Assembly (NCBI GenBank): GCA_947575425.1
Contig: CANPNQ010000054.1
Span: 1-6,797 of the forward strand
Origin: an uncultured Erysipelotrichaceae bacterium
GTDB lineage: Bacteria; Bacillota_I; Bacilli_A; Erysipelotrichales; Erysipelotrichaceae
DNA length: 6,797 nt
Reading direction: 5' to 3'
The notes below the pieces were generated by a model. The model had not been told where the DNA came from, ran no database searches, and saw nothing but the letters and a program-made list of their open reading frames with translations. Below, piece after piece: positions 2-6,797 of the stretch (positions are counted from its first letter, which is position 1; every line of letters begins with the position of its first letter). The position numbers were made by a program, and so were the translations under genes.

Positions 2-655
2 AAAGAGAAGGAAATGGAACTTGAGCGAGAGGTAACAAAGAAGCATACCAAAGAATTAGCGAAGACATGGACGGAAGCGGTAGCTACAGTAACTAACAAG
101 GCCAACATATCCGAAGCATTAAAGCAATCAGGAATTTATGCCACAGAAGGATATGCCCGCGGGCTTTTGGATCCAAAAGCAATACAGAAGGTAAAAGAAT
201 CTGCACAAACAATGGTTCAAGCAGCGATAGATGCGGCTAACCTCACACAAAAGACAGGTTCTCCAGCTCGTGTTTTTCGCGATGATGTTGCTTATTGGGG
301 CGGTGCGGGTTATGCTTTGGGTCTTACCGATTCACAAGGTTTGATCAAGAAATCGGCCCAGGCAATGGTACAGTGTGCCATTGATGAGGCAAAGCAGATG
401 AATCCCTTGCTTGAAGATGCTTTCAGCATAGACTTAGGATCTACGATCGATGGCATGAGATCGATAGCGATACAGCATTCCAGTACGATGCCGGTACAAG
501 CAAGCAACGATGTCTACAATTCCTATGCCACGAATATGGATCCTATTGATTATGACAAACTGGGTAAATCTGTTGCAGGAGCGATCGGTGATGAAGGTCT
601 ATCTGTGAAATTGAATAGTCGTGAGATCGGTAGAATGAAAAAGGAGTGGCAATGA
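2..655 (+). CDS. Phage tail tape measure protein, C-terminal part (partial)
   Basis: The frame is open through the left edge (residues K-E-K-E precede the first Met codon at 14), so this is the C-terminal ~217 residues of a longer protein and the Met at 14 is unlikely to be the start. Tape measure proteins fill the tail lumen, set tail length and are ejected with the DNA. Supporting features are the position directly upstream of Dit, an Ala/Lys/Gln-rich helical composition, and the GSPARVFRD motif (codons near 260-290), which resembles the G-SPS-(R/K)-(V/L/E)-F segments common near tape measure C-termini. Two similar ~37-residue helical units (131-241 and 284-394) flank this motif; both contain GYA-x-GL and SAQ-x-MVQ-x-AID. 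The stop codon overlaps the dit start (TGATG). Confidence 0.85.
   Translation, partial: KEKEMELEREVTKKHTKELAKTWTEAVATVTNKANISEALKQSGIYATEGYARGLLDPKAIQKVKESAQTMVQAAIDAANLTQKTGSPARVFRDDVAYWGGAGYALGLTDSQGLIKKSAQAMVQCAIDEAKQMNPLLEDAFSIDLGSTIDGMRSIAIQHSSTMPVQASNDVYNSYATNMDPIDYDKLGKSVAGAIGDEGLSVKLNSREIGRMKKEWQ
131..394 (+). repeat. Two degenerate ~37-residue repeats in the tape measure C-terminus
   Basis: Unit 1 (131-241) and unit 2 (284-394) translate to segments that align with one gap. They share a GYA-x-GL core followed by a helix with SAQ-x-MVQ-x-AID-x-A. The similarity is clear in protein but not obvious in DNA, which suggests old duplication. Repeated GY/GxA-x-G helices before an SP-x-x-(V/L)F motif are common in tape measure C-termini, so this is a family trait rather than an oddity. 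Confidence 0.6.
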
Positions 656-1488
656 TGGATATTTATTATGAGAACCACAAAGGGCAAACAGTCAACCTGT
701 GCAAACGTCCATATAAGCTGCTTGATATCGATGATCTGTATACCATCAGTAGGGACTACAATCAAAACAATGGAAAGATCACTTCCTTTCAGCAAAAGAC
801 CGCAAGGAAATCCTTTGATCTGGATATCCTTTCCACAAAAGAGATCACATGGAAAGCGGCTGCGGATGAGCTTTATCAAATATTGGAAACGGATATCGCA
901 AATGAGACAGCAGGCAAGCTCTATGTCGGTGAGTATTATCTGCCTTGTTATATTTATCTCGCAGCACCTGACAGAGTGAATTTGCGTAACCCTTATGTAA
1001 CATGTACATTTACCCTTGTCAGTGATCAGCCGACTTGGTTAAGGTCAGATCGATACTCTTATCTGTATGCGAATATTGGCAGCGTCAATGAACGCACCAA
1101 ACGCTATGCTTACCGATACCCGTATCGTTATCATGCAAGAGTAGGTACCAGAGGGCTATACAATCCTTTATCCGCTCCTGCTCATTTTCAATTTATCGTG
1201 TATGGCCCGGTAAATAATCCGGCCATTATGATCGGCGGATATCTTTATCAGGTATTTGTCGATCTGCATGAAAATGAACGCCTGATGATCGATTACAGTA
1301 GTGAAAGAACCAGGACCATTGTGAAATACACTGCAGATGGAAATAGTGAGGATGTTTTCAACAAGCGAAACAAAGAGATCTCGATATTTAAAAAGATCAA
1401 TCCGGGAAAGCAGATCGTGAACTGGTCAGGCGAGTTCAGTTTTGATCTTGTGTTATTTGATGAAAGGAGCCAGCCAAAATGGATCTGA
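655..1488 (+). CDS. Distal tail protein (Dit family)
   Basis: Dit forms the hexameric ring that joins the tail tube to the hub and baseplate. This 277-residue protein sits between the tape measure and the hub gene, where Dit is normally found. Its N-terminal half (about residues 1-125) looks like the Dit barrel domain. The C-terminal half (about 170-277, PAHFQFIVYGPVNNPAI to the SQPKWI end) is the beta-rich galectin-like part of SPP1-type Dits, which often end in a short Q-P-x-W motif. The linker near residues 148-160 is unusually rich in Tyr and Arg. The start chosen is the ATG at 655, 8 bases after AAGGAG (641-646); the ATG at 652 is an alternative adding one Met. A GTG at 646 lies inside the ribosome binding site and is unlikely. 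The end overlaps the hub gene by 10 bases. Family assignment rests on context plus recognisable C-terminal pattern. Confidence 0.8.
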   Translation: MDIYYENHKGQTVNLCKRPYKLLDIDDLYTISRDYNQNNGKITSFQQKTARKSFDLDILSTKEITWKAAADELYQILETDIANETAGKLYVGEYYLPCYIYLAAPDRVNLRNPYVTCTFTLVSDQPTWLRSDRYSYLYANIGSVNERTKRYAYRYPYRYHARVGTRGLYNPLSAPAHFQFIVYGPVNNPAIMIGGYLYQVFVDLHENERLMIDYSSERTRTIVKYTADGNSEDVFNKRNKEISIFKKINPGKQIVNWSGEFSFDLVLFDERSQPKWI

Positions 1489-2486
1489 TTTATACAGAGC
1501 CGTATGATCCAGAACGTGGCATTGTAGAACTTGGATATCTTTCAAACTGTGAGATCGATATAGAATTGGGTACGATTGCAAGCAGTGCCCGGAATGATTT
1601 TGAGGTGATCCTTTATGCAAAAGAGCTTACGGTCAAGAAAGGTGCATTGATCTATGCAGATGATGGATCAGAGATCGGCGGGATGGTCTACGGCGTTAAA
1701 GTAAATACCGGCAATGATGAGATCACTTTGAAATGTAAACTGTGGCGAGGGATGCTGAAGGATCATGTAATAAAACCGGAAACAGGGGATGATTATTACC
1801 TATTTAATGGGGATGCCAATACTGTATTGGCTGATATGATCAACAACGCTTATGACGGTTTGATCGTTGCATCGGATCAGCTATCCCACATATCGGTAAT
1901 GGGCAAAATAAGGTATTCCTCTGTGCTTGAAGCATGTGAGGATATGCTGGCAAAGGTAAATGCGAGATTGAACATCACCTTTACCGGCAGTCAAGTAATT
2001 TGTGAAGCGTTGGAGATCAACGATCTCTCTGATCAGATATGCCTGGATAATGATTATGGTATTCCCATGATCGCAGAGGACAGCGACAGCGGATATAATC
2101 ACATTATCGCATTGGGACAGGGAAACTTGAAGGATCGTCAGGTAATAGAGCTGTGGAGAACAGAGAATGGAACGATCAGTGATGATCCGGGCGCAGAAGG
2201 GATACCGGTAGGGCTCGCTTTAAGATCCTATGTATATGATTATTCATCAGTAGAAACACCGGAAGAATTGGAACGCGCAGCGGTTAAGAAACTGAATGAA
2301 TTGGGACCTACAAAGAAGCTGGAAATAGAACCGGGGAAGCTGGATGTGGAACTGGGAGACATCATAAGGGCAATGGAAAGGACAACGGGTATCAGTATGA
2401 AAAAGCAAGTCACAAGAAAGATCATAAAGGGACAGATCTATAACGGTGTCCCATATATGACAACAGAATATAAGGCAGGTGATTAA
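1479..2486 (+). CDS. Tail hub / Gp37-like minor tail protein
   Basis: The 335-residue protein resembles the siphovirus ReqiPepy6 Gp37-like family, which is thought to form the trimeric hub under the Dit ring (gp27/Tal N-terminal-like). Recognisable parts are the N-terminal strand region (residues 1-45, ending near SSARNDFEVIL), a central region with the HIIALGQGNLKDRQVIEL strand pair, and the C-terminal segment with ETPEELERAAVKKLNEL followed by LDVELGDIIRAM and a final VTRKIIKGQIYNGVPYMTTEYKAGD-type strand end. The length is normal for the stand-alone hub. No peptidase or lysozyme domain is attached, so any tail-associated wall hydrolase would have to be elsewhere. AAAGGAG at 1463-1469 lies 9 bases before the ATG, and the start overlaps the end of dit. 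The gene probably belongs to one late transcript. Confidence 0.8.
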   Translation: MDLIYTEPYDPERGIVELGYLSNCEIDIELGTIASSARNDFEVILYAKELTVKKGALIYADDGSEIGGMVYGVKVNTGNDEITLKCKLWRGMLKDHVIKPETGDDYYLFNGDANTVLADMINNAYDGLIVASDQLSHISVMGKIRYSSVLEACEDMLAKVNARLNITFTGSQVICEALEINDLSDQICLDNDYGIPMIAEDSDSGYNHIIALGQGNLKDRQVIELWRTENGTISDDPGAEGIPVGLALRSYVYDYSSVETPEELERAAVKKLNELGPTKKLEIEPGKLDVELGDIIRAMERTTGISMKKQVTRKIIKGQIYNGVPYMTTEYKAGD

Positions 2487-2487
2487 C

Positions 2488-4170
2488 ATGGGATTAAGAC
2501 ATATTACAGTAGATCGTATTGATGATCCAATCGATATATATGCATCGGATGACAGCCGTATATTTGCGTCTATCTTGGGGGCAGAAGGTATTCATAACAT
2601 CGGAAACTGCATGAAGTGTGAAGCGATCGGCAGTAATCAGTTCAGGATCAGTGACGGTGTTGCGTCTGTACAAGGACATATTGCCATTATCGATCCGGGT
2701 GATGAGGAAGTGCTGACCGCAGATATCGGAGTGTCCGGATATAATCGGATCGATCTGATCGTGCTTGATTTTAACACAGATGGGCAAAACGATGAGATCA
2801 CTCTGCAGGTGATCAAAGGAACACAGGCTTCTACACCTGTCGTGCCTTCTTACGTATCACAGGATCTTACAAAAGGCGGTACCCATCGGCAGGTACCGTT
2901 ATGGAAGATCAATTTTGAGGGTGCATTGATTAAAGGCGTGGAGAGAGCAACGCCTGTGATCGATTCATTGCAATCATTAACGGATCTGATCAATGATGTC
3001 CTTACGGGAACAAAGACAGTCGGTAAGGCAAATAAGGCATTTGGAACGGATGGGATGGATGTTGGATCACCAGAGAATCAGGATCGCTATTTGAATTTCC
3101 ATACAAAAGACGGTGCTTATTATCGCCTATATGCTTATGATGGAGGACTTTACATCAGAAAATACAAAGCTGATGGTACCGCTATTCGTACTGCATTATC
3201 TATCTCAAAGGATGGAATATCAACGGTAGACAATGCGACCAACGCAAGCCATGCGCCTGAAGGCTTTGACTTAGGCAGTGATGAGGCGCCTAACCGCATG
3301 CTTAAATTTTTCACAGGGCATGATGGATCTTATTTCCGCATCCATGCGTGGTATAGCGGCGATCCGGTAAAGGATTGCTTATGGCTGGAATTGGTGGATA
3401 AGGATGGAAACATAATCGGTACACCATTAAAAATTATTGATGGTGAAGGAACCATAGACAAGGCTTTGGCAGTACCATGGAGCGGGGTGTTCGATAAACC
3501 GGAAACTTATCCTCCATCATCACATAATCACGATGACAGATACTTTACCGAAACGGAAATAACAAATAACTATGTTTCCAAAGCAGCGAGCGGACTATTG
3601 GTGAGACCAGCCACCTCTTCAAATATACTATCCTTTGCCTCTGATGGTATAAAAAACGGGCTAGTCGAAGTAGCGAATACATATAGCGGCGATACGGCTA
3701 ACTGTCCGTATGATCCTTTTATGGGGCTTAAGATCCAATACAATATATCGGCATCCATATCCTTTGTGCTGTTGTATGAAGCCGCACCACATCCTGGCAA
3801 TGTCTGGATGAGGGTTTATAACAACAATTGGAGAGATTGGGTATGTGTATCAGGACGCAGACAGCTCTGGACAGGAAGTATTGGCGAAGGAAATCAAGTC
3901 GAACTGAACGCTTCCCCAAAATACTTCCGTCGGCTGGAATTATACGTGGATATATTGGAAACACCTATCACTGTACCCTACAATGAATACAGTGAATCTA
4001 TCTATGGCGGGTTGTCATGGAAAGGCGATGGTGATGGATTTATGCAGACGGCAGGGCAATTTATTATTAACGATAAGATGCTCACAATAGCGAAACTGGG
4101 TAAGAAGAATTTGTCAAATGGCACATATACACCCGGAGTGAAGCTGTTGCGTGTTGTTGGTGTATCATAG
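2488..4170 (+). CDS. Modular tail fibre / receptor-binding baseplate protein
   Basis: The 560-residue protein lies just after the hub and is the best candidate for host-surface recognition. Regions seen (numbering from ATG 2488): residues 1-~165 form an N-terminal structural domain of a type that attaches fibres to the baseplate (contains the RIDLIVLDFNTDG and VPLWKINFEG strands). Residues ~186-325 hold two tandem ~65-residue repeats. At 331-358, WSGVFDKPETYPPSSHNHDD is a tail-fibre linker of the W-x-x-V-x-x-KP...SHNHDDRY type, whose HxH pattern can bind metal in trimeric fibres. Residues ~362-455 include a pyocin-knob-like stretch (NVWMRVYNNNWRDWVCV). Residues ~458-560 are a beta-rich terminal domain I do not recognise. 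The ATG at 2488 is chosen over a GTG at 2479 because AGGTGA (2477-2482) serves it. Ligand specificity cannot be read from the sequence. Confidence 0.82.
   Translation: MGLRHITVDRIDDPIDIYASDDSRIFASILGAEGIHNIGNCMKCEAIGSNQFRISDGVASVQGHIAIIDPGDEEVLTADIGVSGYNRIDLIVLDFNTDGQNDEITLQVIKGTQASTPVVPSYVSQDLTKGGTHRQVPLWKINFEGALIKGVERATPVIDSLQSLTDLINDVLTGTKTVGKANKAFGTDGMDVGSPENQDRYLNFHTKDGAYYRLYAYDGGLYIRKYKADGTAIRTALSISKDGISTVDNATNASHAPEGFDLGSDEAPNRMLKFFTGHDGSYFRIHAWYSGDPVKDCLWLELVDKDGNIIGTPLKIIDGEGTIDKALAVPWSGVFDKPETYPPSSHNHDDRYFTETEITNNYVSKAASGLLVRPATSSNILSFASDGIKNGLVEVANTYSGDTANCPYDPFMGLKIQYNISASISFVLLYEAAPHPGNVWMRVYNNNWRDWVCVSGRRQLWTGSIGEGNQVELNASPKYFRRLELYVDILETPITVPYNEYSESIYGGLSWKGDGDGFMQTAGQFIINDKMLTIAKLGKKNLSNGTYTPGVKLLRVVGVS
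3043..3462 (+). repeat. Tandem ~65-70-residue repeat inside the fibre gene
   Basis: Unit 1 (about 3043-3234) and unit 2 (about 3253-3462) encode alignable segments. Both read G-(M/F)-D-(V/L)-GS, then N/D-x-R-x-L-x-F-x-T-x-x-D-G-(A/S)-Y-(Y/F)-R-(L/I)-(Y/H)-A, then a strand ending in (A/K)-D-G-(T/N), and a closing (S/I)-x-x-DG-x-(S/G)-T-(V/I)-D. Unit 2 carries about five extra residues in the middle. Such duplicated beta units usually lengthen a trimeric fibre shaft. The DNA copies have diverged, so a very recent duplication is unlikely. Confidence 0.72.
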
Positions 4171-4181
4171 GAGGATCGAAT

Positions 4182-4547
4182 ATGAGCAAAGCAAATAAGA
4201 GTGTTGTAGTACAGGAAGAAAAGATAACGGCTAAGATCAAGCTGGATGAAGGCGGGCGCTGTGAATCTGTAAATGGTGTCTATTCAGATGATGATACTGT
4301 CATTGAAAGAACATTTGACAGTGAAGCAGAAGCGTTTGCCTTCTTCCAGCATGCACAGGATTATGTGTACAAAAAAGGAAAGTGGATCGAGGATCCGTTG
4401 CCTGAACCTGAACCGGAAGCATCACCGTTGGAGATACTGCAGGAAGAAAACAAACTGCTAAAGGCACAAGTAAAGTCGCTGGAAGAAACACAGGAGTTTC
4501 TAAGTGACTGCCTGATCGAGATGTCAAGCGTTGTGTATGCTGAGTAG
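4182..4547 (+). CDS. Small tail-module protein with C-terminal coiled coil, function unknown
   Basis: I do not recognise a named family for this 121-residue protein. Visible layout: a polar N-terminal domain (about 1-70) with an SEAEAFAFFQ helix, a Pro/Glu linker (about 71-82, LPEPEPEASP), and a heptad-like helix (about 83-110, LQEENKLLKAQVKSLEE) that should form a coiled coil, followed by a short hydrophobic end (MSSVVYAE). Small acidic coiled-coil proteins in this position, between the fibre gene and an XkdX/CD1375-like gene, are common in Firmicutes siphoviruses. They may help fibre assembly or cap the baseplate, but that is inference from position. AGGAGG (4169-4174) overlaps the stop codon of the fibre gene and lies 7 bases before this ATG, suggesting coupled translation. 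Confidence 0.75.
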   Translation: MSKANKSVVVQEEKITAKIKLDEGGRCESVNGVYSDDDTVIERTFDSEAEAFAFFQHAQDYVYKKGKWIEDPLPEPEPEASPLEILQEENKLLKAQVKSLEETQEFLSDCLIEMSSVVYAE

Positions 4548-4587: not shown

Positions 4588-4716
4588 ATGATGGCAATGT
4601 TATGGGCGCAGAAAATTATGTTTGGCAAAAAAACATATGCGGATGTACCTGCAAAACTGAAAGAGCAGGTAAAGGAAATCCTGATTGAATCAGGTCTTGA
4701 AGAATTGGCGGCATAG
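4588..4716 (+). CDS. CD1375/XkdX-like small phage protein
   Basis: This 42-residue protein has the pattern of a short, widespread family found between tail-fibre and holin genes in Firmicutes phages: a hydrophobic N-terminus, then GKKTYADVPAKLKEQVKEIL and a GLEEL end. Its role is not established. The ATG at 4588 is chosen because AGGAGG (4575-4580) lies 7 bases upstream; the ATG at 4591 is also possible, and upstream ATGs at 4531-4537 lie inside the preceding gene without a good site. The last two Ala codons (GGC GGC) and the TAG stop form one arm and the loop of a terminator hairpin, so the gene end and the transcription stop are the same bases. Confidence 0.75.
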   Translation: MMAMLWAQKIMFGKKTYADVPAKLKEQVKEILIESGLEELAA

Positions 4717-4732
4717 GCCGCCTTTTCTTTTT
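4707..4732 (+). terminator. Intrinsic terminator between tail and lysis genes
   Basis: A perfect 6-bp G+C stem, GGCGGC (4707-4712) and GCCGCC (4717-4722), encloses the tetraloop ATAG and is followed by TTTTCTTTTTC. The stop codon TAG (4714-4716) lies in the loop. The arms are short but all G:C. Because no clear promoter precedes the holin gene, it probably acts as a partial terminator that lowers lysis-gene transcription relative to tail genes; a ribosome reaching the stop codon would cover the stem and could reduce termination. Confidence 0.75.
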
Positions 4733-4734
4733 CA

Positions 4735-4765
4735 AACAAAGAAAGCGAGGACAAACAAAATGAAA
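4735..4765 (+). repeat. Duplicated translation start region, copy 1 (holin)
   Basis: The 31 bases covering the GCGAGGA ribosome binding site and the first two holin codons match 5222-5252 at 28 of 31 positions. Both contain the core AACAAAGAAAG, then YGAGGACAAA, then ATGAAA. Here the copy is non-coding apart from its last six bases and sits directly after the terminator T-tract. Confidence 0.9.
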
Positions 4766-5245
4766 GAGCTTATCACACAGAATTGTAACGCAGCAGTGAA
4801 AACAATCACAGACAAATACAATGCGCTTGTCGGTGGTTGTGTTGCATTCTTATCAATGATCTTTGGTGAATACTGGTATCTGTTCGCTTTATTCTTAGCA
4901 CTGAATGTAGCTGACTGGTTCACCGGCTGGATGAAATCAAGGATTGCCAAGAAGGAAAATTCTACAAAAGGATGGCTTGGCATATTAAAGAAGTTGGGAT
5001 ATTGGATCATGATATTTGTAGCATTTGGGGCATCCGTTGCCTTTATTGGCATTGGTGAAAAGATCGGCATTGATCTAGGCATCACCACCTTACTAGGGTG
5101 GTTCGTTCTGGCCAGCCTGATTGTAAACGAGATCCGATCAATCATTGAGAATTTTGTAGAAGCAGGGTACAACGTCCCTGTTATTTTAATAAAAGGCTTG
5201 GAAGTTGCAGACAAAATGATCAACAAAGAAAGTGAGGACAAATAA
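4760..5245 (+). CDS. Phage holin (phage_holin_4 / toxin-secretion holin type)
   Basis: Holins form lesions in the cytoplasmic membrane at a set time and release the endolysin. The 161-residue protein has hydrophobic segments at about residues 24-50, 81-97 and 106-123. A short polar loop after the first carries the N-x-x-D-x-(F)-TG motif (NVADWFTGWMKS, 49-60), which marks this holin family (D-x-x-TG near the end of the first hydrophobic region). A Lys-rich loop (59-78) and a charged C-terminal tail (KESEDK) follow. The ATG at 4760 is chosen because GCGAGGA (4745-4751) precedes it; an in-frame ATG at 4685 lies within the previous gene and across the terminator. The stop is one base before the endolysin ATG, and the end of this gene contains the endolysin ribosome binding site, so the two are probably translationally coupled. 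Confidence 0.88.
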   Translation: MKELITQNCNAAVKTITDKYNALVGGCVAFLSMIFGEYWYLFALFLALNVADWFTGWMKSRIAKKENSTKGWLGILKKLGYWIMIFVAFGASVAFIGIGEKIGIDLGITTLLGWFVLASLIVNEIRSIIENFVEAGYNVPVILIKGLEVADKMINKESEDK

Positions 5246-5252
5246 TATGAAA
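5222..5252 (+). repeat. Duplicated translation start region, copy 2 (endolysin)
   Basis: Matches 4735-4765 at 28 of 31 positions, including GAGGA (5234-5238), the spacer and ATGAAA. Unlike copy 1, this copy also encodes the last residues of the holin (NKESEDK and stop). The three differences are all substitutions. Confidence 0.9.
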
Positions 5253-6188
5253 ATTATGATTTTATGCGGACATGGCAAGGATGGATCCAGTTATGATCCG
5301 GGTGCCATTGGATGCGGATACAAAGAGGCAGAGGAAACAATTAAATATGGTAATTTGATTGCTAAGTATCTGCGCCAGTATGCAAGCGTGGATGTATACG
5401 AAGGTAACATGTATCATTACTTATTTGAGACAGGGCATACATATGACTTCACCAAATATGACTATGTGCTGGAGTGTCATATGAACGCAGCCGCCAACGC
5501 ATCCGGTCATGGTACAGAGATCTTCGTAACAACACATGAAAAGGAGATCACAGTAGAACAGGCAATCATGAAGCGCTTATCCAAGTATTTCACGCTGCGA
5601 GATAATGATGCCGTATTCGATGGTGTGAAGCGATATAATTGGGGAGTGATCAATGCGATCAAAACGCAGGACAAGGTATCTAGCGCCTTACTGGAACTCT
5701 GTTTCATCACCAACCAAGCAGATATGACTATTTATGCAAATAGCCTTGAGGCGATCTGTAAGGACATAGCAGAGGGCATTGCCGAAGGCTTTCAATTATC
5801 TGCATCCGGCAGTACGGTAAAAGTACCAAGCAATGCGCCAGTGGCAAAGCCAGTAACTAGCGATAAGAAATCGATTGAGACGATCGCAAGGGAAGTCATG
5901 AATGGCGCATGGGGCAATGGTTCTGACAGGGCAAACAGGCTCACTGCTGCGGGTTATGATTATCAAGCGGTCCAGGCTAAGGTAAACGAATTGTACGGAA
6001 TGCCGAGCGCGTCTAAGCCTGTTTCAACGAAGAAAAGCAATGCACAGATCGCACTGGAGATTTATAACGGAACATGCTCTGATCCTCGTTGGAGTGATTG
6101 GGGGAATGGTGGAACAAGGGTAAGCCGCTTACAACAGGCTGGATATGATCCGGTAGCAGTACAAGCTGAAGTAAACAAGCTATTTTAA
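5247..6188 (+). CDS. Endolysin: N-acetylmuramoyl-L-alanine amidase with two CW_7 repeats
   Basis: This 313-residue endolysin should cut the bond between N-acetylmuramic acid and L-alanine in the host wall after the holin opens the membrane. Residues 1-~184 are an Amidase_3 domain: CGHG with zinc ligand His9, GYKEAE with Glu27, ECHMN with His78, and the catalytic Glu150 in SALLELCFITN. A Ser/Pro/Lys linker follows (~185-207). Two CW_7 (Cpl-7-type) wall-binding repeats then occupy ~208-250 and ~263-313, each ending in the AGYD...VQA-x-VN-x-L signature. The second has eight extra residues (TCSDPRWSD region) before WGNG. There is no signal peptide, so export depends on the holin. ATG 5247 is chosen, 8 bases after GAGGA; a GTG at 5232 would sit in the ribosome binding site. 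CW_7 repeats bind muropeptide rather than choline, so wall binding may be broad. Confidence 0.95.
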   Translation: MKIMILCGHGKDGSSYDPGAIGCGYKEAEETIKYGNLIAKYLRQYASVDVYEGNMYHYLFETGHTYDFTKYDYVLECHMNAAANASGHGTEIFVTTHEKEITVEQAIMKRLSKYFTLRDNDAVFDGVKRYNWGVINAIKTQDKVSSALLELCFITNQADMTIYANSLEAICKDIAEGIAEGFQLSASGSTVKVPSNAPVAKPVTSDKKSIETIAREVMNGAWGNGSDRANRLTAAGYDYQAVQAKVNELYGMPSASKPVSTKKSNAQIALEIYNGTCSDPRWSDWGNGGTRVSRLQQAGYDPVAVQAEVNKLF

Positions 6189-6196
6189 AAGAAATT

Positions 6197-6234
6197 ATCC
6201 CATCTCTCTTAATTGAGGGGTGGGATGTTTTTTT
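6197..6234 (+). terminator. Intrinsic terminator ending the phage late operon
   Basis: The arms ATCCCATCTCTC (6197-6208) and GAGGGGTGGGAT (6215-6226) pair over 12 bp, with two G-U pairs when read on the + strand, around a TTAATT loop. A run of seven T follows (6228-6234). On the minus strand the G-U pairs become A-C mismatches and the T-tract is poor, so it works chiefly for the + strand. It stops phage transcripts 8 bases after the endolysin stop codon, before they run antisense into cotJC. The minus-strand chimeric cotJC frame ends within the same bases (stop at 6195-6197). Confidence 0.9.
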
Positions 6235-6263
6235 ATGTATTTTCCTAACAAATAGAATGTATG

Positions 6264-6291
6264 TACCGATTCCTCGGTTGCGATATCGGTA
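6264..6291. other. Candidate prophage attachment junction (att half-site pair)
   Basis: Protein similarity to CotJC ends at or just after the TEE codons (6270-6278). This stretch is an imperfect dyad: TACCGAT (6264-6270) and its reverse complement ATCGGTA (6285-6291) around a 14-base centre whose middle two bases are GT (6277-6278). Large serine recombinases cut at a central dinucleotide flanked by imperfect inverted arms, so the geometry fits, but seven-base arms can occur by chance. The exact crossover cannot be fixed without the other prophage end or an uninterrupted cotJC. Confidence 0.4.
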
Positions 6292-6427
6292 AGCATTGCC
6301 TTTAACTGTGGATAAGGCATCGAATAGCGTTGGCTCATATAACGCAGAGCCGCAGACAATTCTCCGTCCGCTCCTCCCACCTGCGTGATAAGCACTTTGG
6401 CAAATGCCGGATCGCTCCTATGAATCG

Positions 6428-6715
6428 TTACCGGAAATTGAAGTCGTTTTTCATATGCCCACATGATTCATCGTCTCCTTCCCATGGCCATGGTCCATAT
6501 ACATACTCCCAGCGATCAGAAAGATTACTGCGGTTACTCAAAGGTCCGTAGCATTTTTCATAGATCGCAACCGCCTTGTTTTTGTATTCCCGATATGTCT
6601 GATACTCATTCATTGCCTGCTTATCGTGAGGATGGGAATTGAGAAATAAGGCTGCTTCCTGAATAGCAAAGTCAAACACTTGAATGTCGTGTAGCAGCTC
6701 TTTTTTAGTTTTCAT
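6428..6715 (-). CDS. cotJB: Spore coat protein CotJB
   Basis: The complete 95-residue protein has the CotJB pattern: a helical N-terminal part (KKELLHDIQVFDFAIQEAALFLNSHP), a Tyr-rich helix leading to YEKCYGPL, and a WEYVYGPWPWEG segment near the C-terminus matching the family's conserved Pro-Trp end. CotJB is a coat component made in the mother cell and works with CotJA and CotJC. GAGAGG (6725-6730) lies 9 bases before the ATG. The start overlaps the end of cotJA (11 bases, ATGAAAACTAA), and the end overlaps cotJC by 37 bases and carries the cotJC ribosome binding site, so the three are one translationally coupled operon. The frame is intact and the length is normal. In Bacillus subtilis the operon is under sigma-E; the promoter here would be outside the window. 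Confidence 0.93.
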   Translation of the reverse strand: MKTKKELLHDIQVFDFAIQEAALFLNSHPHDKQAMNEYQTYREYKNKAVAIYEKCYGPLSNRSNLSDRWEYVYGPWPWEGDDESCGHMKNDFNFR

Positions 6716-6797
6716 GGGGATATACCTCTCTTTTCATGAGTGGCTTGTAAAGCTCACGGAAAATGGTTCCCTGACAAAAGCCATCCTCTAAGCCTTC
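6705..6797 (-). CDS. cotJA: Spore coat protein CotJA, C-terminal end (partial)
   Basis: Reading the minus strand from the right edge gives a 30-codon open frame ending in TAA at 6705-6707. Its EGLEDGFCQGTIFRELYKPL matches the CotJA C-terminal pattern (A/G-L-x-x-GT-x-(F/W)-x-x-LY-x-P). It lies directly upstream of cotJB and overlaps its first 11 bases. The N-terminal part and the operon promoter are beyond the window. CotJA is the small coat protein needed for CotJC assembly into the coat in B. subtilis. Confidence 0.85.
   Translation of the reverse strand, partial: EGLEDGFCQGTIFRELYKPLMKREVYPHEN

Follow-up and report, generated by a model that had tools for sequence, protein, structure and literature searches.

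The window, by which we mean the whole stretch of DNA analysed here, is 6,797 nucleotides long and represents an entire contig (C54) of the draft genome of an uncultured Erysipelotrichaceae bacterium (1.49 Mb in 292 contigs, 66.5% complete). Genes of the cotJ operon enter from the right on the minus strand, and phage genes on the plus strand converge on them. The features are as follows.

6195..6464, minus strand: 5' part of cotJC, an open reading frame (ORF) of 89 amino acids with 65 cotJC codons (6270-6464) and 24 codons of the prophage end (assigned from PF05067, the junction and the frame)
6270..6272, minus strand: attL core GAA (TTC on the plus strand), common to attR at 262-264 of contig C144
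6241..6272, no strand: core and prophage-side attL arm, which with the end of C144 forms an inverted-repeat attP (22 of 29 symmetric positions; left end approximate)
6428..6715, minus strand: cotJB, complete (PF12652, E 1.9e-24)
6705..6797, minus strand: final 30 codons and stop of the upstream gene, read as cotJA and truncated where the contig ends (from the translation)
5232..6188, plus strand: prophage N-acetylmuramoyl-L-alanine amidase with CW_7 repeats, an endolysin (PF01520, E 3.8e-21; PF08230, E 1.8e-32); start likely at 5247, by eye
4685..5245, plus strand: prophage holin (PF05105, E 3.9e-29); likely start ATG at 4760, by eye
4182..4547, plus strand: prophage late ORF of 121 amino acids (from the ORF list alone, without a family search)
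2479..4170, plus strand: prophage late ORF, tail-fibre-like by position (no Pfam match; inferred from gene order)
1479..2486, plus strand: prophage late ORF, Sipho_Gp37-like tail protein (PF14594, E 8.2e-5; 22.2 bits, below the cut-off of 26.2)
646..1488, plus strand: prophage late ORF, distal-tail-like by position (no Pfam match; inferred from gene order)
2..655, plus strand: prophage late ORF, incomplete at the left contig end (no Pfam match)

The name cotJA for 6705..6797(-) was given from position and by eye, without a family search. A preliminary description of this DNA had regarded both cotJA and cotJB as intact, which holds for cotJB; of cotJA, the window contains no more than the 30 codons at its 3' end. 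The same description had a complete phage late operon beginning at the break in cotJC. The operon instead ends there, with its last gene stopping 82 bp away, and it is incomplete, its first ORF extending past the left contig edge. Tail and lysis genes had likewise been described as intact: the lysis genes were confirmed by Pfam as holin and amidase, whereas the label of tail genes is based on order and size, since Pfam gave nothing for three late ORFs and, for a fourth, a match below the cut-off.

The ORF at 6195-6464(-) matched positions 1-70 of the 284 positions of the PF05067 Mn_catalase profile (E 3.1e-20). The cotJC-like sequence ends after codon 65, at the core, in agreement with the earlier estimate of about 65 codons, and the remaining codons of the ORF are element-side DNA. 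A search of the same genome for the Mn-catalase family returned three places: the window (profile positions 1-70), contig C144 (61-164) and a weak match on contig C51. Both cotJC parts exceeded the curated PF05067 cut-off of 27, with 69.7 and 65.9 bits, and the 3' part on C144 adjoins a gene for a large serine recombinase (LSR), an arrangement that the preliminary description had predicted. Joining of the two parts in silico at GAA, as it had proposed, yielded a single open frame, ..DIATEE/LAHVEM.., with the nucleotides ..CTTACCGATATCGCAACCGAGGAA and CTAGCGCATGTGGAAATG.. on the two sides of the junction, so that the insertion point lies between the TEE and LAH codons. The joined frame is open for 152 codons up to the end of C144, the final codons lying beyond that contig, and the resulting protein, TDIATEELAHVEM, is close to congener sequences. 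In all six congeners cotJC is intact across the insertion site, and amino acid identity to the cotJC product of congener G002 is about equal for the two halves, at 86.2% and 87.4%.

The element ends, joined in silico, formed an inverted repeat with 22 of 29 symmetric positions (binomial P of 1.3e-8 per centre, with 80 centres scanned). An inverted-repeat attP is the expectation for a serine integrase. We judged the split not to be due to chance because the 3' part is present in the same genome, both halves are about equally similar to the G002 gene, and attP is an inverted repeat. The coding region of a sporulation gene is thus cut, both of its parts are kept, the frame is restored at a short core, and a serine recombinase lies beside the junction; that a prophage inserted site-specifically inside cotJC is close to certain, and a prophage within this gene is what the preliminary description had held. 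The available text of PMC3416734 lists cotJC as sigma-E regulated in Bacillus subtilis. The attP junction and the cotJC 3' side had no exact match in IMG/VR.

No full-length cotJC was found elsewhere in the 66.5%-complete genome by the Mn-catalase search, consistent with the preliminary description, for which a second intact copy would have counted against its reading. A divergent Mn-catalase paralog does exist on C51 at 2-391(-) (locus L005), truncated by the contig end, and weak matches of this kind occur in all six congeners. Its presence makes a backup for cotJC possible.

Inward from the cotJC 3' part, C144 encodes a 477-amino acid LSR (450-1883; distance to the core at 262-264 about 185 nt) in which Pfam identified Resolvase, Recombinase and Zn-ribbon domains, one further ORF, and a repressor of the S24 peptidase type. 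With the holin and amidase of the window, these are the genes of a temperate phage. The LSR shows 32.2% identity in alignment to the SP-beta integrase yokA, and a search of IMG/VR returned one distant relative. Its ORF has 482 codons from stop to stop, compared with 504-612 for the other 87 LSR ORFs tabulated, and an in-frame stop leaves it 44 codons short of the point where its homologues end. The 44 codons that follow the stop are still open and resemble the COOH-terminus of the homologue in G030, a genome of the same family, so the stop is either recent or an assembly error; as judged from sequence, the recombinase may be recently broken, may carry a sequencing error or may still be active. 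An Rfam scan of the window and C144 gave nothing at gathering thresholds. Upstream of the LSR gene, at 1960-2160 of C144 (locus L004), two hairpin-like stretches and a sigma-A-like promoter were seen by eye, again with no Rfam match.

A search of 146 related genomes with this LSR gave some match in 77. The six closest relatives (in G030, G129, G114, G057, G126 and G115) lie beside a cut cotJC in five cases, and G057 had no Mn-catalase match. An alignment of six sequences was used for a single scan of genome records, which returned 307 relatives. Among the best 80 of the 307 loci, 51 have, according to a profile search, a cotJC piece that lies downstream of the LSR at a distance of no more than 1.6 kb, and 6 of the 29 loci lacking such a piece have less than 200 nt of downstream sequence; the piece was also present in six of seven further whole-genome loci, that of the window's genome included. 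Loci with a cotJC piece come from Lachnospiraceae, Oscillospiraceae, Tissierella, Sedimentibacter, Alkaliphilus, Blautia and one Paenibacillus, among others. The break is marked by T-E-E (GA[AG]GAA) in 27 of 29 5' pieces, the two exceptions being L088, misplaced by the script, and L121, which is frameshifted. In L061, L067, L080, L081 and L093 the codons after T-E-E still read LAH or LGH. All 28 of the 3' pieces start at PF05067 profile positions 60-65. The LSR lies beside the 5' piece in some loci and beside the 3' piece in others, with both arrangements mixed throughout the LSR tree. Of 40 genomes picked from the 80 loci, 37 have a cut cotJC by our own count of the table; 25 of these have no full-length PF05067 match and 12 have one. 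No description of a split and rebuilt cotJC was found in the literature searched, which covered few subscription journals and preprints.

Seven phage records with related LSRs were also examined. An inverted repeat (17 of 25 positions) comes after the LSR of Paenibacillus phage phiIBB_Pl23 and reads GGTACAGAAGAG on the other strand, with a TEE-type core. In phage record MT835739 (L164) the sequence after the LSR is attB-like, GCCAACGAACTGGCTCA, and encodes N-E-L-A-H, as if attP mimicked the host codons. At loci L059 and L065 the sequence next to the LSR resembles an unbroken attP; the assembly may have captured these elements in an excised or extrachromosomal state.

The cotJC elements span about 2.7 to 60 kb. 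With both gene parts on one contig, the gaps of small elements measured 2.7 kb in G172, 4.7 kb in G155, 5.0 kb in G151, 5.2 kb in G153, 5.4 kb in G147, 6.3 kb in G114 and 6.6 kb in G030, and those of large elements were 38-60 kb (G177, G166, G161, G160, G176, G159, G180 and G158). All seven of the small elements have an open LSR gene and keep the cotJC parts. Fourteen of their other ORFs, searched in Pfam, gave no match to head or tail families; they include one phage holin (in G030) and one amidase, with further matches to Fic, radical SAM, acetyltransferase, transporter, RhuM and restriction families, and some ORFs without any match. The small elements could be shrunken prophages.

The small elements share an ORF of 45-75 amino acids near the LSR with the motif E[FY]x[IL]GNTx[IV]KIxDDYC, which we treat as a candidate directionality factor (RDF). 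A profile, built from the same loci, detected it in 52 of 88 LSR loci and in three of the seven phage records, and in none of 13 loci of other LSRs, 20 loci with intact cotJC, or six loci comprising G172 and cotJC insertions at other sites (A, C and D, described below). A database search returned 378 homologues, the named ones among the 120 matches listed being hypothetical or uncharacterised, and comparison with Pfam and PHROGs gave no convincing match. No candidate was found in C144, the window or the rest of their 66.5%-complete genome.

Upstream of the RDF candidate, the motif CATANNNT was present in 25 of 45 regions with an assigned start (shuffle mean 8.0). We take CATANNNT to be a sigma-E/K -10 element and WWRRACARNY to be a SpoIIID box. 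A sigma-A pattern was found in 7 of the 45 regions (shuffle mean 0.4), all seven within a Clostridiaceae small-element clade of 10 regions that also holds 8 of the 25 CATANNNT matches; with a sigma-A-type match in seven of ten, the reading of a mother-cell promoter does not extend to this clade. In seven loci of the clade (L111, L112, L119, L124, L126, L127 and L128) the RDF candidate and the LSR form one operon with a sigma-A-type promoter, and a terminator-like hairpin, seen by eye between promoter and gene, is a possible attenuator. After the 10 near-identical rows of this clade had been left out, the other 35 regions contained CATANNNT in 17 (shuffle mean 5.7, reached in 0 of 300 shuffles), [AG][GT]ACA[AC]-N6-16-CATANNNT in 11 (mean 0.2; 0 of 300), ATA-N15-19-CATANNNT in six (mean 0.9; 0 of 300), WWRRACARNY in 10 (mean 2.3), and the sigma-A pattern in none. 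These counts apply to a motif defined after the same sequences had been viewed, with starts chosen by rule and shuffles that were first-order resamplings. As a background, the ACA box with CATANNNT preceded 14 of 1496 ORF starts of the same loci, RDF-candidate genes included. In G030, CATACAAT precedes the RDF candidate, and there was no match to the promoter motif upstream of the RDF relatives in the three phage records. As a positive control, the region upstream of cotJA had the ACA box with CATANNNT in 0 of 12 cases and the -10 element alone in 7 of 12, a count equalled or exceeded in 4 of 300 shuffles. Sigma-factor motifs showed no clear enrichment upstream of the LSR genes themselves: CATANNNT occurred in 22 of 87 (shuffle mean 22.0), and counts for a fuller sigma-E pattern and for sigma-K and sigma-A patterns were 8, 7 and 4 against shuffle means of 4.3, 3.8 and 1.3, respectively.

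Selection on cut genes was estimated in the genus of locus L119, whose relatives are recorded as Clostridium sp. Among 58 genomes drawn, 20 have a full-length gene, 4 have no match and 34 have partial matches only; at least two of the latter (G191 and G226) are frameshifts, not insertions, and contig ends may explain others. The dN/dS ratio (NG86) of cut cotJC was 0.087 for the 3' part (11 rows) and 0.081 for the 5' part (9 rows), or 0.088 and 0.086 after removal of frameshifted (L204 and L205) and duplicate (L156) rows, compared with 0.096 and 0.047, respectively, for the 20 intact genes. The ratio of the 5' part is thus higher when cotJC is cut than when it is intact. Given these low values, the cut genes are under purifying selection and not visibly decaying. 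Vertical co-descent of element and cotJC was not supported, with LSR and cotJC divergence being uncorrelated in the Clostridiaceae small-element clade (Spearman 0.15, p 0.53); the low dN/dS could therefore predate recent insertions, and frequent re-insertion and long residence are not told apart.

The position of the insertion seen in the window is one of four at which cotJC is cut, at approximate residue or profile positions 30 (site A), 65 (B), 102 (D) and 137 (C). Some genomes have cotJC in three or four pieces, the extra sites being adjoined by other LSR groups. In G157 four pieces lie on four contigs (1-32, 30-65, 63 to about 130, and about 124-190, with a shared part near 133), and its full-length PF05067 match is a divergent paralog. 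The LSRs at sites A, C and D possess all three LSR domains by Pfam, one of them with the zinc ribbon below the cut-off, and share 23-27% identity with the LSR of the window; the site A pair is 43% identical, and those of sites C and D are 39% identical. Site B itself harbours a second LSR type, in G172, that is 25% identical to that of the window. This insert of about 2.7 kb at the TEE site (L216, G172:C273:7900-11700) carries an LSR of a different group and is an instance of convergent site use. In Blautia parvula (L217, G146:C1:6208500-6224500) cotJC is cut near position 137 and the piece adjoins genes that include one for an AAA_10 ATPase, presumably of the conjugation type; judged by these genes, the insert is a putative ICE-like intervening element.

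In part of the loci without cotJC, members of the window's LSR clade interrupt other genes. LysM-GH18 spore-hydrolase (YaaH/SleL-like) genes are cut near YTYGPPMAV in L084, L102, L106 and L114, assigned by Pfam, and in L089, L122, L125 and L130, assigned by eye. Asparagine-synthase genes are cut directly before EIFGGYPW in L091 and L103 (PF00733) and in L100 (by eye). We take both targets to have sigma-E-controlled counterparts in B. subtilis, yaaH and asnO. A further member, at L097, lies in a V-type ATPase subunit A gene, which is not an obvious sporulation gene.

We lean towards the explanation that an LSR prophage occupies cotJC and that the gene is rebuilt on excision, likely in the mother cell. 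According to this model, the LSR encoded beside the 3' part made the insertion, as we infer from its position, and would be present anyway. The small companion protein (about 45-75 amino acids), a predicted RDF made from a mother-cell-type promoter, would switch the LSR from integration to excision, as the accessible part of PMC5025042 describes for CD1234 acting on the skin element of Clostridioides difficile. Excision of the prophage by the LSR would then rebuild cotJC, the mother cell would make intact CotJC, and the spore chromosome would retain the element. That some of these elements, at least, undergo regulated excision is in our estimate reasonably probable; we lowered this estimate because a sigma-A-type promoter occurs in the very clade of small elements for which the selection data are best. 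No excised, rejoined cotJC junction was seen in any data examined. With regard to sporulation of the host, SpoIVA is present in all six congeners and was not found in the 66.5%-complete genome of the window; SpoIIID exceeded the cut-off in none of the seven genomes of the genus (G000-G006), three of which gave weak matches.

The strongest competing explanation, which we regard as appreciable though clearly second, is that cotJC is no more than a safe and conserved landing site for ordinary temperate phages and further LSR elements, the metal-site codons being conserved DNA, the gene dispensable and its rejoining confined to rare induction, with no tie to sporulation. It accords with the lysis genes of the window's prophage, with the mild effects of cotJC-type losses in C. 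difficile and B. subtilis reported in the available portions of PMC11222575 and PMC12122855, and with the full-length Mn-catalase match in 12 of the 37 genomes with a cut cotJC. The unenriched sigma-E/K motifs of the LSR genes, the sigma-A-type promoter of one small-element clade, and the uncorrelated LSR and cotJC divergence, which fits turnover and not co-descent, point in the same direction. A mere landing site does not, however, agree well with small elements that have no recognised head or tail gene and yet retain an open LSR and both gene parts, with the motif upstream of the RDF candidate outside the Clostridiaceae small-element clade, or with the spore-type genes that are the other repeated targets of the LSR clade.

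It is unlikely that the insertion in the window is dead and fixed, with a truncated recombinase and with cotJC of this strain a pseudogene. The stop 44 codons early in the LSR, the missing RDF candidate and the second, divergent Mn-catalase gene on C51 would all suit such a state, but the piece beyond the stop is open and G030-like, and both cotJC parts are open with 86-87% protein identity to the congener G002. With its recombinase truncated and the directionality factor missing, we consider it rather doubtful that this particular prophage can still excise. An artefact of assembly or binning that combined C54 and C144 from different insertions, as might be suspected of halves on separate contigs in a draft of 292, is very improbable given the common core, the single frame, the matching inverted-repeat arms, the equal identity to G002 and the existence of relatives in which a single contig shows this whole architecture.

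Our preferred reading, a prophage whose excision rebuilds cotJC, has several precedents. The SP-beta prophage in spsM of B. subtilis is excised to rebuild a sporulation gene, according to the available text of PMC4191935. The present element likewise is a prophage inside a sporulation gene with a related LSR, whereas the host gene is cotJC, the site is another, and excision during sporulation is here a prediction. For C. difficile skin in sigK, the accessible part of PMC5025042 reports a constitutive LSR, the 72-amino acid RDF CD1234 under control of sigma-E and SpoIIID, and the SpoIIID box KRTAACARK. The cotJC elements would share this logic of an LSR plus a small RDF, although sigK is a regulator and cotJC a coat-enzyme gene. 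The gin element in gerE of B. cereus (28.6 kb, three recombinases, 9-bp overlap) and vfbin in B. weihenstephanensis, as presented in the available sections of PMC5595907, indicate that intervening elements need not be phages, which also applies to the small cotJC elements without recognised head or tail genes; these are about 2.7-7.5 kb, unlike gin, and the core in the window is 3 bp. Alicyclobacillus phage MMB025 is described in the accessible text of PMC13141910 as infectious and identical to a prophage in sigK, with a short core and inverted repeats; these features recall the present case, but the target is sigK and not cotJC. Finally, C. difficile phage phi027 has its attachment site at a CotJC-like gene and in the available text of PMC11222575 and PMC12122855 is described as adjacent to that gene, not as splitting or rebuilding it.

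In the accessible parts of the cited papers, intervening elements of sporulation genes have a handful of targets (sigK, spsM, gerE and the target of vfbin). Here one coat-enzyme gene, cotJC, is cut in more than 50 genomes, at up to four sites and beside genes for unlike recombinases, and an unnamed family of small proteins beside the LSR fits the role of directionality factor. A cotJC gene that looks broken in a member of the Clostridia or a relative may be a functional split gene. A broader proposal, which we hold tentatively and at close to even chances, is that mobile DNA of many kinds docks in cotJC throughout the spore-forming Bacillota, with at least four LSR groups using four fixed codon sites, and that in some species, as with the four pieces of G157, the gene has to be spliced at the DNA level, element by element, in the mother cell; the elements would be phage-sized, ICE-like and of 2.7-7.5 kb. 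If this is true, cotJC would amount to a bacterial gene interrupted by several mobile "introns" that are removed once per life cycle. If excision is developmental, these loci would provide many ready systems of recombinase, factor and att sites, as well as a natural test of why phages pick genes that are needed solely in a doomed cell.
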